Assembly: GCA_025656675.1 (NCBI GenBank) | Contig: JAHXHN010000001.1 | Span: 649,501 to 713,500, forward strand | DNA length: 64,000 nucleotides | Source: Candidatus Thiodiazotropha sp. (ex Codakia rugifera) | GTDB taxonomy: Bacteria > Pseudomonadota > Gammaproteobacteria > Chromatiales > Chromatiaceae | Reading direction: 5' to 3' | Part shown: positions 10,025 to 53,280 of the stretch, one piece after another | Numbering within the stretch: position 1 is the first letter of the stretch | Layout: each line of letters begins with the position of its first letter | Program-made: the position numbers and the translations under genes | Notes under the pieces: model-generated | The model's input: only the letters and a program-made list of their open reading frames with translations | The model's database searches: none | What the model was told of the DNA's origin: nothing

Positions 10025-10070
10025 GTCAGGGCCTGTTAACAGGTCCTAAGCCGACAGAAGCTCCTAGTGT
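10025..10070. repeat. Dispersed palindromic repeat, copy 1
   Basis: Contains the 12-bp perfect palindrome CCTGTTAACAGG at 10032-10043 within GTCAGGGCCTGTTAACAG, and ends with CTCCTAGTGT. The same left part and TCCTAGTGT tail occur at 18700-18729, and the palindrome core recurs at 27301-27322. All three lie just after a gene end (here ppk2, stop at 10016). Confidence 0.7.
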
Positions 10071-17573: not shown

Positions 17574-18251
17574 CTAGCTGGCCCTTTCTGACACCACAAG
17601 GGATTTCAGCTCATCCATTCGCTGTCGGGCGCTCTCTAACTGCACATCACTGTCGAGGTGCTGAACCATCACCTCACCCTGGTCAAGAAGCGCTTCCAGC
17701 TGAATAGGATCAAACAGGGTCACAGCAGCTTCAAATTCCTTCCGTTCAGCGCTGAGTAGCACAGGAAGCAACGCCTCTTTTGAAATCAATGATTCGGGAT
17801 CCAGCAGGTCAGCTACCAATGGATGCTCAAGCAGCTCAAAATGGGTCTTACGTGCTGTCGCCTCCTGCTCTAGCTCTTGCAAAGCAAGGCTATCGTTGCC
17901 CGCACCTTTCCACACGGCCTGCATAATGACTTCTACCAATTTTACGATGGCATGCTTATTCGGTGTCTGATCATCAGCCAGTCGACAGGCCTGCTCATAA
18001 GCCTTGTCCAAACGCTCTTTTAACTCAAGGATGACATCGCTCTGCTCGTGAGGCCCAAGCGCCACAGCTTCACCCACCAGCTTTCTCAGCTGACTTATAT
18101 AAGCCACCAATTCCTCATGATCAAGACGTTGGGCTTCCGTCAGTTGGTCCTGAGTAAGTGTGCGCTCACTTTCAGAAAATAGTGGATTGTTATGCTTACG
18201 CACCAGATGGCGTTCATGCCTTCCAGGCAGTTCACTAAACATCAGTCTCAT
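17574..18251 (-). CDS. Uncharacterised helical protein
   Basis: 225 residues; I do not recognise the family. The start is ATG 18251, behind GGGTG at 4 nt. After a basic, unstructured first 25 residues the protein is almost entirely predicted helix, rich in L, E, A and Q (for example HEELVAYISQLRKLVGEAV and KHAIVKLVEVIMQAVWKG). It has no signal peptide, membrane span or cysteine cluster, so it is probably cytoplasmic. Its stop lies 10 bp from that of the CAP lipoprotein (convergent). An FNR-type box 160 bp upstream of its start faces the divergent small gene as well. Confidence 0.6.
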   Translation of the reverse strand: MRLMFSELPGRHERHLVRKHNNPLFSESERTLTQDQLTEAQRLDHEELVAYISQLRKLVGEAVALGPHEQSDVILELKERLDKAYEQACRLADDQTPNKHAIVKLVEVIMQAVWKGAGNDSLALQELEQEATARKTHFELLEHPLVADLLDPESLISKEALLPVLLSAERKEFEAAVTLFDPIQLEALLDQGEVMVQHLDSDVQLESARQRMDELKSLVVSERAS

Positions 18252-18409: not shown

Positions 18410-18423
18410 TTGATTTAAATCAG
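18410..18423. promoter_or_regulatory. FNR/Anr-type box upstream of the 26-aa ORF
   Basis: TTGATTTAAATCAG matches the FNR consensus TTGATNNNNATCAA at nine of ten fixed positions. A class II arrangement would put the start of transcription near 18458, 100 bp before the small ORF's ATG, but the -10 (TACCCT at 18446-18451) is weak. It could also act on the divergent gene starting at 18251. Confidence 0.5.
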
Positions 18424-18557
18424 TGGCTCAGGTGATCTTTCCAATTACCCTGCTCTGCGCAATGTTATTGCTGCTCTGAAGGATTTTCCGTCCCACGATA
18501 CCGACAAGCCGGTGAGCAAAACTTTTATGGTCTAGGTCAATCTTGGAGGACAACACC

Positions 18558-18638
18558 ATGTTAGGTAGTGATAATGCACTAGTAGGCGCACTAGCCATCT
18601 TGATACTGGGTATCTTAGTCTCAGTCTTGATAGGCTAA
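18558..18638 (+). CDS. 26-residue single-span membrane peptide
   Basis: A short ORF: ATG at 18558, TAA at 18636. The ribosome binding site is strong, GGAGG about 8-9 nt before the ATG. The peptide starts MLGSDNALVGAL and continues as one uninterrupted hydrophobic helix of L, I, V, G and A up to the final glycine, with no charged residue after D5. That is the look of a small inner-membrane regulator or subunit, such as CydX/CcoQ-type peptides, although I recognise no named family. A GC-rich hairpin follows 8 bp after the stop, and an FNR-type box lies 135 bp upstream, so it forms a complete monocistronic unit. The next gene on the other side is an FNR-box hemerythrin. Confidence 0.65.
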   Translation: MLGSDNALVGALAILILGILVSVLIG

Positions 18639-18645
18639 AGGCAGT

Positions 18646-18674
18646 GGGGCGGTGAAAAGAGGAGTCTCCGCCCC
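18646..18674 (+). terminator. Hairpin terminator after the 26-aa ORF
   Basis: GGGGCGG (18646-18652) pairs perfectly with CCGCCCC (18668-18674) across a 15-nt loop, directly after the small ORF. No T run follows, so efficiency is uncertain. Confidence 0.55.
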
Positions 18675-18699: not shown

Positions 18700-18729
18700 G
18701 TCAGGGCCTGTTAACAGAGATCCTAGTGT
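18700..18729. repeat. Dispersed palindromic repeat, copy 2
   Basis: GTCAGGGCCTGTTAACAG (18700-18717) is identical to the left part of copy 1. It is followed by AGA and then TCCTAGTGT (18721-18729), which in copy 1 lies farther right, as if about 17 bp including the right half of the palindrome had been lost. It ends 6 bp from the hemerythrin stop. Confidence 0.65.
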
Positions 18730-18735
18730 GGTGCC

Positions 18736-19170
18736 TCATATAGTTTGGCTGAGAAAACGGGCAGTCACCATATCCATACTGTTCACATGTGCCTTAAACC
18801 AATCCTGCCACTCCACAAATATATACGCTGCGAGCCTATCCAATTGGTTATCATCAAGCCATTGTTGCTGCATTGACTCAATTCTCAAGAGTGCCTGTTG
18901 ATGTTCACCCAGGTGTACAGGGTAGGGTGGGAAACCGTATTCCTTCATCATTTGGTTTTCGCCATCAAAATGCGCGCGGGTATGCTCCACCCACTCATTC
19001 AGCTTGGACGTTATCGCCTCTGAATCAGCATCGCCCTCAACCCCAGCAATGACAAGTTCTCCCAGCTGATTGATTAAGGCGACCTCTTCCCGGTGAACCT
19101 CATTCATGGTCTCGAGTGCCACTAATGGTATCTCAGTGATATCGATGACAGGTAGTTGATATTGGCTCAC
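18736..19170 (-). CDS. Bacteriohemerythrin
   Basis: A 144-residue single-domain hemerythrin that binds O2 at a non-haem di-iron centre in the cytoplasm. All seven ligands can be placed: H26 (MNEVHREE), H63 or H67 with E71 (HTRAHFDGENQMM), H86 and H90 (HLGEH), and H128 and D133 (HVNSMD). The start is GTG at 19170; the N terminus LPVIDITEIPLVALETMN looks family-like. A perfect FNR half-site pair lies 65-78 bp upstream, at the spacing of a class II activated promoter, suggesting induction when O2 is low. Family roles are O2 delivery or buffering and O2 sensing. Confidence 0.93.
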   Translation of the reverse strand: MSQYQLPVIDITEIPLVALETMNEVHREEVALINQLGELVIAGVEGDADSEAITSKLNEWVEHTRAHFDGENQMMKEYGFPPYPVHLGEHQQALLRIESMQQQWLDDNQLDRLAAYIFVEWQDWFKAHVNSMDMVTARFLSQTI

Positions 19171-19206: not shown

Positions 19207-19248
19207 ATCCTATCCGATAGTTACATTACCGCCATTGATATTGATCAA
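19207..19248 (-). promoter_or_regulatory. FNR/Anr-dependent promoter of hemerythrin
   Basis: TTGATATTGATCAA at 19235-19248 has both FNR half-sites perfect (TTGAT-N4-ATCAA). On the minus strand a -10-like TAGGAT at 19212-19207 lies so that the box is centred near -41.5 of a start at about 19200, the class II geometry. The hemerythrin GTG is 30 nt further. Confidence 0.7.
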
Positions 19249-27300: not shown

Positions 27301-27322
27301 GGACCTGTTAACAGGTTCTAAG
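27301..27322. repeat. Dispersed palindromic repeat, copy 3
   Basis: ACCTGTTAACAGGTTCTAAG (27303-27322) shares the 12-bp palindrome CCTGTTAACAGG and the following TYCTAAG with copy 1. It overlaps the ntrC stop codon (27318-27320) and could form a hairpin at the end of that transcript. Confidence 0.65.
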
Positions 27323-51300: not shown

Positions 51301-53280
51301 TCAGCGACGTCGAGGTCGAAACTTGCGTACCTGCCTTGCAAAAAGCGGGTATGCCATGTCGGTACTACGAGCGGCGTAGCGTAGCTGAATATAGTGATCG
51401 CTAATCCGCATGATCTGTTCTGCCAGATCAGGGCGTCGCCGTGATGCTCGTCTTGCAAAGTCCAATGGCCCCTCATAGGGTCGGCGGCTAATACCCAGGC
51501 GCGACAGCCTACGACAGAAGCGATCATATGTTCTTTTTACCCGGGTTTGCTGCTGCTTCCCCTGCCAGGTGATGTGCAGGCCAACAAATAACAAACTGAC
51601 TGCAATCATGCCAATTGTTATCAGGCCCCATTGGGTTGTGGTAAAGATGTTGAAACCAAAGCTGCGCATCAGGTTGAACTGATGCTCCCTGCTATATCCA
51701 ATGATCCATCGTTCCCATTGGACGTTGGCACTATCGAAGGCATAGGCAAATTGCTGAACAATAGAACCGACAAACCCACTGCTGTCGATGTTAAACAGTG
51801 CGGGTGATCCCTCCTCTCCAAAATTTAATCGAATAGGATAATTCACCCGCTCGGGTGCAACAGCTGCGGTAGGGTCGACCCTTACCCAACCGCGATCTTC
51901 CAGCCAGACTTCAGACCAAGCATGAGCGTCATACTGTCGGACTATGAAATAGTCACCGAGGGTATTGTACTCTCCACCCTGATAGCCCAATACAAGTCGT
52001 GCTGGAATAGCGGCAATACGCATTAGCTGGGTAAAACTGGTGGCATAATGTTCACAAAATCCCTCTCGTCCTTCAAACAGAAACTCGTCGATGGCGTTAT
52101 TGATATAGCGTGGAGGTGTAAGCGTATAGACGAATGGTTGGGTATTGAAATAGCGTAAGGCTTCATTGACTATCTGCTGATCATTCAACGACCTTGCCTG
52201 CCATTGTGAGACAAGATCCCGTTGACGTTGTGTCACGTTATCATTCAGCTGTAATGCCCGCCTGCGCAAAATAGGGGGTAACTGTGGTGTACGATAGTGA
52301 GTTGCAGATCGTCCGTTATAGAGCAGTGGTTGGGTAACCGGCTGTTTTTTTATCAACTGAAAATCTCTGCTTAATCGGCTGTTTGCGGGTGCGGCGATGG
52401 GGAGATCAAGACTGTATAGCCAGTGTTTGTTATGTGGCTCAAGAAAGACTTGGTAAACTATGGGATCACTGATTTGAGTGAGCTCTACCGAATCATATCC
52501 CACCGGCTGGCTTCTATCTGTATACCAGCTATAGCCATCTGTATCCCAAAGTACCAAACCCCGCCAATAGCGTTGTTCCGTTGGAGGTGGTGGCTGTTTG
52601 AACTGGACGCGGAAAGCAACCTCAGATGACTCGATCAGTTGACTGATAGCACCAGGTGTCACTCGATCACTAAAACCGGTTATTGCCGAAGAGCCGGTTG
52701 TGAAATTCCATAGGGGTTGCGTGATACGGGGAAAGATGACAAATAGAATAAGCGCGATAGGCAGTGCCTGGATCCCTATGATCAGTGTTTTTAGGATGGG
52801 TTCATGTATATGTGATGAAGGTTTTACACGGTTTATCTCCAGTAAAAGTGCAGTAAGACAGATAACGACCATCAATAGATAGAGGGCCATCGCAATTGAC
52901 TGACTGAAAAGAAATTGAGTAGTGACAACGAAATAGGAGATAAAGACCGAAACGTAGATGTCACGGCGTTTCTTTACCTCAATCACTTTCAGTAACAGCA
53001 TATTTACCAATAGAGCAACGCCGGCATCCCGGCCTATCAGCGTTTGGTAGTGTGAGTAGACCAGGAAAATGGCACCAAACGTGGCTAACAGGAGTAACCA
53101 ACGACCGGGTTGCAGGTTGGGTAGATATAAGCTGCTCAATCGCCATCCGAACAGAGCAATCAGATAGAGGTTGATAGGCAGCGATAGATTCATGCCGTGA
53201 GGCAGAATTGCCAACCCCGTAAAGAGGCTGAGCAGAAGCATCAATCGAAACGTCAGGGTCTGTTCAAGGGAGTGTTGCAT
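51301..53280 (-). CDS. TgpA-type transmembrane transglutaminase-like protein (DUF3488)
   Basis: A 659-residue inner-membrane protein. Six or so helices fill the first ~190 residues (DUF3488/TgpA N). A periplasmic transglutaminase-core domain follows with the catalytic triad region FCEHYATSFTQLMRIAAIPARL (Cys), YDAHAWSEVWLE (His) and WVRVDPTAA (Asp), then a further membrane helix and a cytoplasmic tail. TgpA is essential in Pseudomonas; its substrate is uncertain. I start at ATG 53280, preceded by GAGGTAGGTG. It overlaps the DUF58 gene by 17 nt and forms an operon MoxR-DUF58-TgpA. Confidence 0.9.
   Translation of the reverse strand: MQHSLEQTLTFRLMLLLSLFTGLAILPHGMNLSLPINLYLIALFGWRLSSLYLPNLQPGRWLLLLATFGAIFLVYSHYQTLIGRDAGVALLVNMLLLKVIEVKKRRDIYVSVFISYFVVTTQFLFSQSIAMALYLLMVVICLTALLLEINRVKPSSHIHEPILKTLIIGIQALPIALILFVIFPRITQPLWNFTTGSSAITGFSDRVTPGAISQLIESSEVAFRVQFKQPPPPTEQRYWRGLVLWDTDGYSWYTDRSQPVGYDSVELTQISDPIVYQVFLEPHNKHWLYSLDLPIAAPANSRLSRDFQLIKKQPVTQPLLYNGRSATHYRTPQLPPILRRRALQLNDNVTQRQRDLVSQWQARSLNDQQIVNEALRYFNTQPFVYTLTPPRYINNAIDEFLFEGREGFCEHYATSFTQLMRIAAIPARLVLGYQGGEYNTLGDYFIVRQYDAHAWSEVWLEDRGWVRVDPTAAVAPERVNYPIRLNFGEEGSPALFNIDSSGFVGSIVQQFAYAFDSANVQWERWIIGYSREHQFNLMRSFGFNIFTTTQWGLITIGMIAVSLLFVGLHITWQGKQQQTRVKRTYDRFCRRLSRLGISRRPYEGPLDFARRASRRRPDLAEQIMRISDHYIQLRYAARSTDMAYPLFARQVRKFRPRRR

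Follow-up and report, generated by a model that had tools for sequence, protein, structure and literature searches.

The locus analysed here lies in a stretch of 64,000 nt from Candidatus Thiodiazotropha sp. (ex Codakia rugifera), referred to below as the window, and corresponds to a plus-strand gene (18558..18638; ATG at 18558, TAA at 18636-18638) supported by conservation and by profile searches, whose predicted product, MLGSDNALVGALAILILGILVSVLIG, is a single-helix membrane peptide. With only 26 residues and an ORF of 81 bases, this gene is easily overlooked. Its product contains one acidic residue, and residues 7-26 carry no charge and have a GRAVY of 2.84, in agreement with an earlier note on this DNA that described a single hydrophobic helix almost devoid of charge; a single hydrophobic helix of about 30 aa is likewise what characterizes CydH/YnhF. 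The strong GGAGG ribosome-binding site that had been proposed is found at 18545..18549 (+), 8 nt before the ATG, and is also present in 16 of 17 aligned leaders, the exception being GAAGG in genome G001. Alignment of 23 micropeptide sequences revealed three invariant residues (A7, G10 and G18), together with an A or S at position 11, a small residue at position 22 in 96% of the sequences (S, A or T) and a G or S at position 26. Clustering of the small residues on one face of the helix is a trend that is not significant (permutation p 0.13; variability p 0.10).

Upstream of the gene, an FNR-type box, TTGATTTAAATCAG, was detected at 18410..18423 (+) with its end 134 nt from the ATG, and a predicted -10 hexamer, TACCCT (18446..18451, +), is separated from the box by exactly 22 nt. 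Class II FNR promoters have their site centred near -41.5, hence the 22 nt from box to -10 element; centring the box at -41.5 places the hexamer at -12 to -7, and transcription is predicted to start near 18458. The consensus TTGAYN4RTCA[GC] occurs upstream of the micropeptide in 19 of 20 loci, 18 of which have TANNNT exactly 22 nt past the box (TGCTCT in the remaining one, G006). Taken alone, the FNR-type box is weak evidence, because exact TTGATN4ATCAG has 38 sites genome-wide and a looser version is found in the 64-kb window at close to the expected number (3 seen, 2.85 expected). The combination of box, 22 nt and TANNNT is more than chance: it occurs at two sites in the window, one for the micropeptide and the other for a neighbouring hemerythrin gene, and at none in 20 first-order Markov windows. 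An FNR homologue is encoded in the same genome (281 bits versus a curated cut-off of 228), so that box, spacing to the -10 element and regulator homologue are all features that the locus appears to share with FNR/ANR class II promoters. Since five weaker FNR-family matches occur besides this homologue, box and spacing point to the FNR family and not to a particular member. The box announced by the earlier note is thus present and conserved, and the oxygen regulation proposed along with it draws support from this promoter, which resembles that of the hemerythrin gene, and from an FNR homologue above cut-off; FNR-type control of the micropeptide gene is considered highly probable.

The predicted 5' leader of 100 nt (18458..18557, +) has a conserved start, CGCAATGTTATTG, and a conserved stretch before the ribosome site; its predicted length ranges from 73 to 104 nt in 19 loci. 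The sequence CGCARTGTTATTG, located at the predicted transcript start (18458-18470 in the window), is strongly conserved; it could belong to the promoter or serve for pairing with RNA. At the other end, folding indicates a G+C-rich hairpin after the stop (18646..18674, +; -16.9 kcal/mol in the 50 nt from the stop), a probable terminator or mRNA-end stem between convergent genes. The stem-loop claimed previously does therefore exist, and a G+C-rich hairpin of -17 to -32 kcal/mol was found 3' of the stop in every one of the 20 primary copies; it is this recurrence that suggests its role as a terminator, the window hairpin having no T-run and being absent from the output of a terminator scan. The hairpin may also serve the convergent hemerythrin gene, since in G021 and G015 a run of six T lies past it on the opposite strand.

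This convergent neighbour (18736..19170, -) encodes a hemerythrin-domain (HHE) protein of 144 aa (PF01814, E 3.2e-11). With regard to the bacteriohemerythrin families, to which the micropeptide is unrelated, it scores above the cut-off of TIGR02481 but below that of NF033749 (60.7 versus 84 bits). As the earlier note had stated, it has an FNR-type box of its own, TTGATCAATATCAA (19235..19248, -), which the scan for box, 22 nt and TANNNT retrieved in the same class II arrangement, with a predicted -10 hexamer TAGGAT (19207..19212, -) 22 nt after the box. Hemerythrin orthologues at the locus display this arrangement in 17 of 17 cases, 15 by regular expression and two (G016 and G006; loci L043 and L052) by eye with T as the last base, a loosening adopted after the first scan; the three relocated hemerythrin genes have it as well (3/3), likewise with T as last base.

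In all 19 relatives fetched, the micropeptide gene is located between the gene of a 225-aa protein (Y225) and a 3-hydroxyisobutyrate-dehydrogenase-like gene followed by hemE, and the hemerythrin gene lies between the same two flanking genes in the window and in 16 of the 19 relatives. Y225 (17574-18251, -) is conserved in the genus, is 47-54% identical in two other genera and has no match in Pfam or NCBIfam. In G004, G013 and G018, the place of the hemerythrin gene is taken by a desaturase-like gene and a gene for a 104-aa membrane protein (both named by eye), with the desaturase-like gene sitting between two copies of the peptide gene (L047 7589-8785, L048 7802-8992, L049 7470-8669). Desaturase-like enzymes use O2; no FNR-type box was found in the 300 nt before this gene in the three genomes. 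A 631-aa sensor-kinase-like gene, also named by eye, lies between the hemerythrin and dehydrogenase genes in G002 (L041 7754-9649) and G016 (L043 4107-6002), and a gap of similar size separates the two genes in L040, L042, L044 and L046.

The search of 93 genomes, comprising the window's own genome and relatives, detected the micropeptide in 20 of the 22 genomes of Candidatus Thiodiazotropha, which are symbionts of lucinid clams, and gave three extra weak matches beyond the genus, all in long frames; a profile search through the order (210 genomes) agrees with the genus count. The 30 genus matches are full length or one residue short and none has an internal stop. Ten of the 22 genomes harbour a second, diverged copy, which in seven of them is divergent beside the hemerythrin gene. 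According to promoter scans, none of the second copies has its own class II FNR-type promoter, and in seven out of ten a hemerythrin-adjacent box lies 206-289 nt upstream.

The earlier note had proposed to look for loss of the frame or nonsense changes in relatives that keep the neighbouring genes, and the distribution just described, together with a neighbourhood maintained in 19 of 19 relatives, mostly answers in favour of the gene. A few copies depart from it. In G010, the gene is split near codon 3 by an insertion that is about 270 bp long and bounded by inverted repeats, in G011 the ATG is replaced by CTG and the box is absent, and in G014 and G017 neither the 93-genome search nor the 210-genome profile search found a micropeptide match. 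The dehydrogenase and Y225 genes of G017 are about 450 bp apart, and neither peptide nor hemerythrin was seen between them. In G014, an assembly of 400 contigs that is 93% complete, the contig breaks off at a distance of 377 nt from Y225, and no peptide was seen up to that point; because the micropeptide-to-Y225 distance is 285-546 nt in the 13 loci measured, absence in this genome relies above all on the searches of whole genomes. The inverted-repeat ends of the G010 insertion correspond to a GGGCCTGTTAACA-like motif that has five matches in the window with one mismatch at most, versus 0.07 expected (see 18704-18716, 10029-10046, 27301-27313 and 51616-51628), and that represents a MITE-like repeat family.

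Over all pairs of 16 distinct intact primary copies, a set that contains neither the G011 copy with its CTG start nor the interrupted one of G010, pN/pS was 0.283, a figure to be read as an average and not as a test since the pairs share ancestry. Variable codon positions amount to 13, 6 and 20 of 25 for first, second and third positions, respectively. Judging from these patterns, the frame is selected as a protein across the genus, which together with its occurrence in 20 of 22 genomes upholds the claim of a real micropeptide, and the ORF is very probably a genuine coding gene. A different situation may prevail in the subclade formed by the window's genome, G001 and G011, where each pair differs by four to six nonsynonymous and no synonymous changes, and where four neighbouring genes have ratios of 0.06-0.19. 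Six changes out of six being nonsynonymous has a probability of 0.16 under neutrality versus 0.008 at the genus-wide ratio, and constraint therefore looks relaxed in this subclade, the numbers being small. One can thus envisage a gene that is functional in the genus and fading in the species of the window and in the two relatives closest to it, one of which has lost ATG and box while the other has the altered ribosome site mentioned above. The window's copy has every element intact, however, and the small numbers also weigh against this scenario, which is a real possibility but rather on the unlikely side. In a broader sense, the gene looks dispensable, because all changes in the subclade are nonsynonymous, G011 has lost start codon and promoter, and the G010 copy is split.

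Beyond the genus, the profile search of the 210 order genomes returned two full-length matches, MFDGEGAIMGAAVLLILGVVVSALIG in G117 (E 3.9e-4) and MLDGKFALLGAAILILLGVVAAVVLSG in G050 (E 0.22), which are likely relatives and have the conserved small residues in common with the genus peptides; for G050, the weaker of the two, the relationship is based on an E value of 0.22 plus layout. Both lie among other genes than the genus copies do, and neither has an FNR-type box within the 400 nt upstream. A partial match in G110 was rejected because it did not resemble the gene studied here; the non-genus matches read in this search were those of G117, G050 and G110, and short-frame partial matches in G027, G030, G055, G157 and G230 were left out. 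A degenerate start pattern was found in 18 of the 210 genomes, namely G117, G050 and 16 that belong to the genus, with a single match for the reversed control; having been designed once the G117 and G050 peptides were known, it indicates specificity and is not an independent find. Outside the genus, 369 genomes of the class (E up to 1) and 398 of the phylum (E up to 0.05) gave partial matches only, most of them in longer frames, and these were not counted. The micropeptide has no match in Pfam, NCBIfam or PHROGs (E up to 1), and its profile has none in PDB (E up to 10). No literature on it was found, which is weak evidence of absence given that the results were partly off-topic and without the genus name.

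Overall, the explanation that we regard as the probable one, though with clear reservations, is that of a one-gene micropeptide transcript turned on at low oxygen by FNR or an FNR-like regulator and encoding a single-helix accessory peptide of a membrane complex. FNR would bind at -41.5 and activate a transcript of about 220 nt, and the peptide would insert into the inner membrane as one helix with a polar N-terminus of six residues. Residues A7, G10, A/S11, G18, S/A/T22 and G/S26 might then allow close packing onto a helix within some larger complex of the membrane and thereby tune that complex for low oxygen, while the hemerythrin, produced from the same type of promoter, would bind O2. The accessory role in the membrane is suggested by size and sequence. 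A precedent is E. coli CydH/YnhF, to which the micropeptide may be comparable by analogy. Similar short one-helix accessory peptides of oxygen reductases are known, such as CcoM for the cbb3 oxidase, and CydX (37 aa). The micropeptide differs from both in that it has no match in Pfam, NCBIfam or PDB and is not encoded beside oxidase genes; we regard it as a new family among the tiny membrane peptides of the low-oxygen response. For a genus of clam symbionts, an overlooked ORF of 81 bases thereby becomes a gene whose regulation can be tested, and promoter geometry combined with conservation can recover real micropeptides that are dropped by length filters.

The identity of the partner is of interest since it would reveal the mode of respiration of these symbionts under conditions in which sulfide has to be balanced against oxygen. 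One candidate is the hemerythrin itself, which the peptide would dock at the membrane or couple to a terminal oxidase, the two forming one functional unit. The hemerythrin gene adjoins the peptide gene in 17 of 20 loci with a promoter of like type, and the second copies divergent beside it in seven of ten genomes fit the same picture. Nine genomes of the genus were tested for this association: a close match to the hemerythrin (E at most 8.6e-45) was found in seven, all with the peptide, and G014 and G017, which lack the peptide, have distant HHE matches only (E 3.2e-11 or weaker). Furthermore, PMC13137333 places a hemerythrin HHE protein, one of several hemerythrins of this symbiont, in the top-100 transcribed genes of Ca. 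T. endolucinida that are common to three hosts. Against such a partnership, G004, G013 and G018 have retained both peptide copies while their closest hemerythrin is 47-49% identical and located on another contig, G117 and G050 have the peptide but distant HHE matches only (E 3e-6 and 7.5e-6), and shared ancestry could account for the co-occurrence. We consider the partnership unlikely. The matching of the two promoters suggests a joint response to scarce oxygen, made up of a protein that binds O2 and a micropeptide in the membrane. A stronger version, in which soluble hemerythrin and membrane micropeptide, under matched class II FNR promoters, make up a two-part low-oxygen module that hands O2 to the membrane respiratory chain, is put forward as a speculative and improbable extension; if true, it would serve clam symbionts living at the oxygen-sulfide border.

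The size and hydrophobicity of the peptide, its second copies in 10 of 22 genomes and a leader of 73-104 nt would also suit the toxin of a type I toxin-antitoxin pair. One consensus scan revealed no antisense promoter over the gene, the lone minus-strand promoter match (18888-18861) being inside the hemerythrin gene and at chance level, while the conservation of promoter and ribosome site looks like that of an expressed gene and the neighbourhood is fixed. A mobile or viral origin was rejected: 41 pattern stretches occurred in viral contigs with none confirmed, and plasmids gave no match at E up to 1, these searches being insensitive for 26 residues. We regard a toxin as very unlikely. We attach the same low probability to a small regulatory RNA as the conserved element, with an incidental or secondary ORF, which would agree with the short predicted transcript, the strong conservation of its first nucleotides and its hairpin end. 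Third codon positions are free to vary while residues are kept, no conserved leader fold was predicted, the single-strand fold of the window's micropeptide transcript is ordinary (z-score -0.36) and Rfam gave no match. An element acting as RNA only was rejected on account of the leader fold and the Rfam result; a dual-function RNA, both regulatory and coding, is possible.

Least probable of all, and very improbable as a general role, is a single-helix subunit of cytochrome bd oxidase equivalent to CydH/YnhF or CydX. In E. coli, CydH/CydY (YnhF) is a 29-aa subunit of cytochrome bd-I (PDB 6rko_H), and PMC6853902 presents it as a single-helix subunit of an O2-reducing enzyme; this subunit is produced when oxygen is low, and its gene is not part of the cyd operon. 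The micropeptide is of like size, is predicted to form a single helix, has a low-oxygen type promoter and is located away from an oxidase operon; its likeness to CydH in sequence is local and weak (13 hydrophobic columns; hhalign P 0.0005, probability 32%). In contrast to E. coli, most genomes of the genus have no full bd oxidase: at E up to 1e-10, full-length CydA was found in one of the 22 (G012), CydA of G021 is in two pieces on two contigs, six genomes including that of the window have a partial CydA-like match only (about 250 positions in a 637-648-aa frame), and 14 have no CydA, including the peptide-bearing single-contig assemblies G003 and G015. The role of bd subunit was therefore rejected for the genus at large and is possible in the CydA-bearing G012, G021, G117 and G050.

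For an accessory peptide of a membrane complex, cbb3 oxidase may be considered as one candidate partner. A ccoN match was found in 24 of 24 genomes tested (23 over cut-off) whether the peptide is present or missing, and no partner gene clearly co-varies with the peptide. In the window's genome (contig C2 of G000), a second FNR-family match (551104-551796) precedes the match for ccoN of cbb3 oxidase (552224-553594) by about 0.4 kb, with a TTGATN4ATCAG site nearby at 549666.
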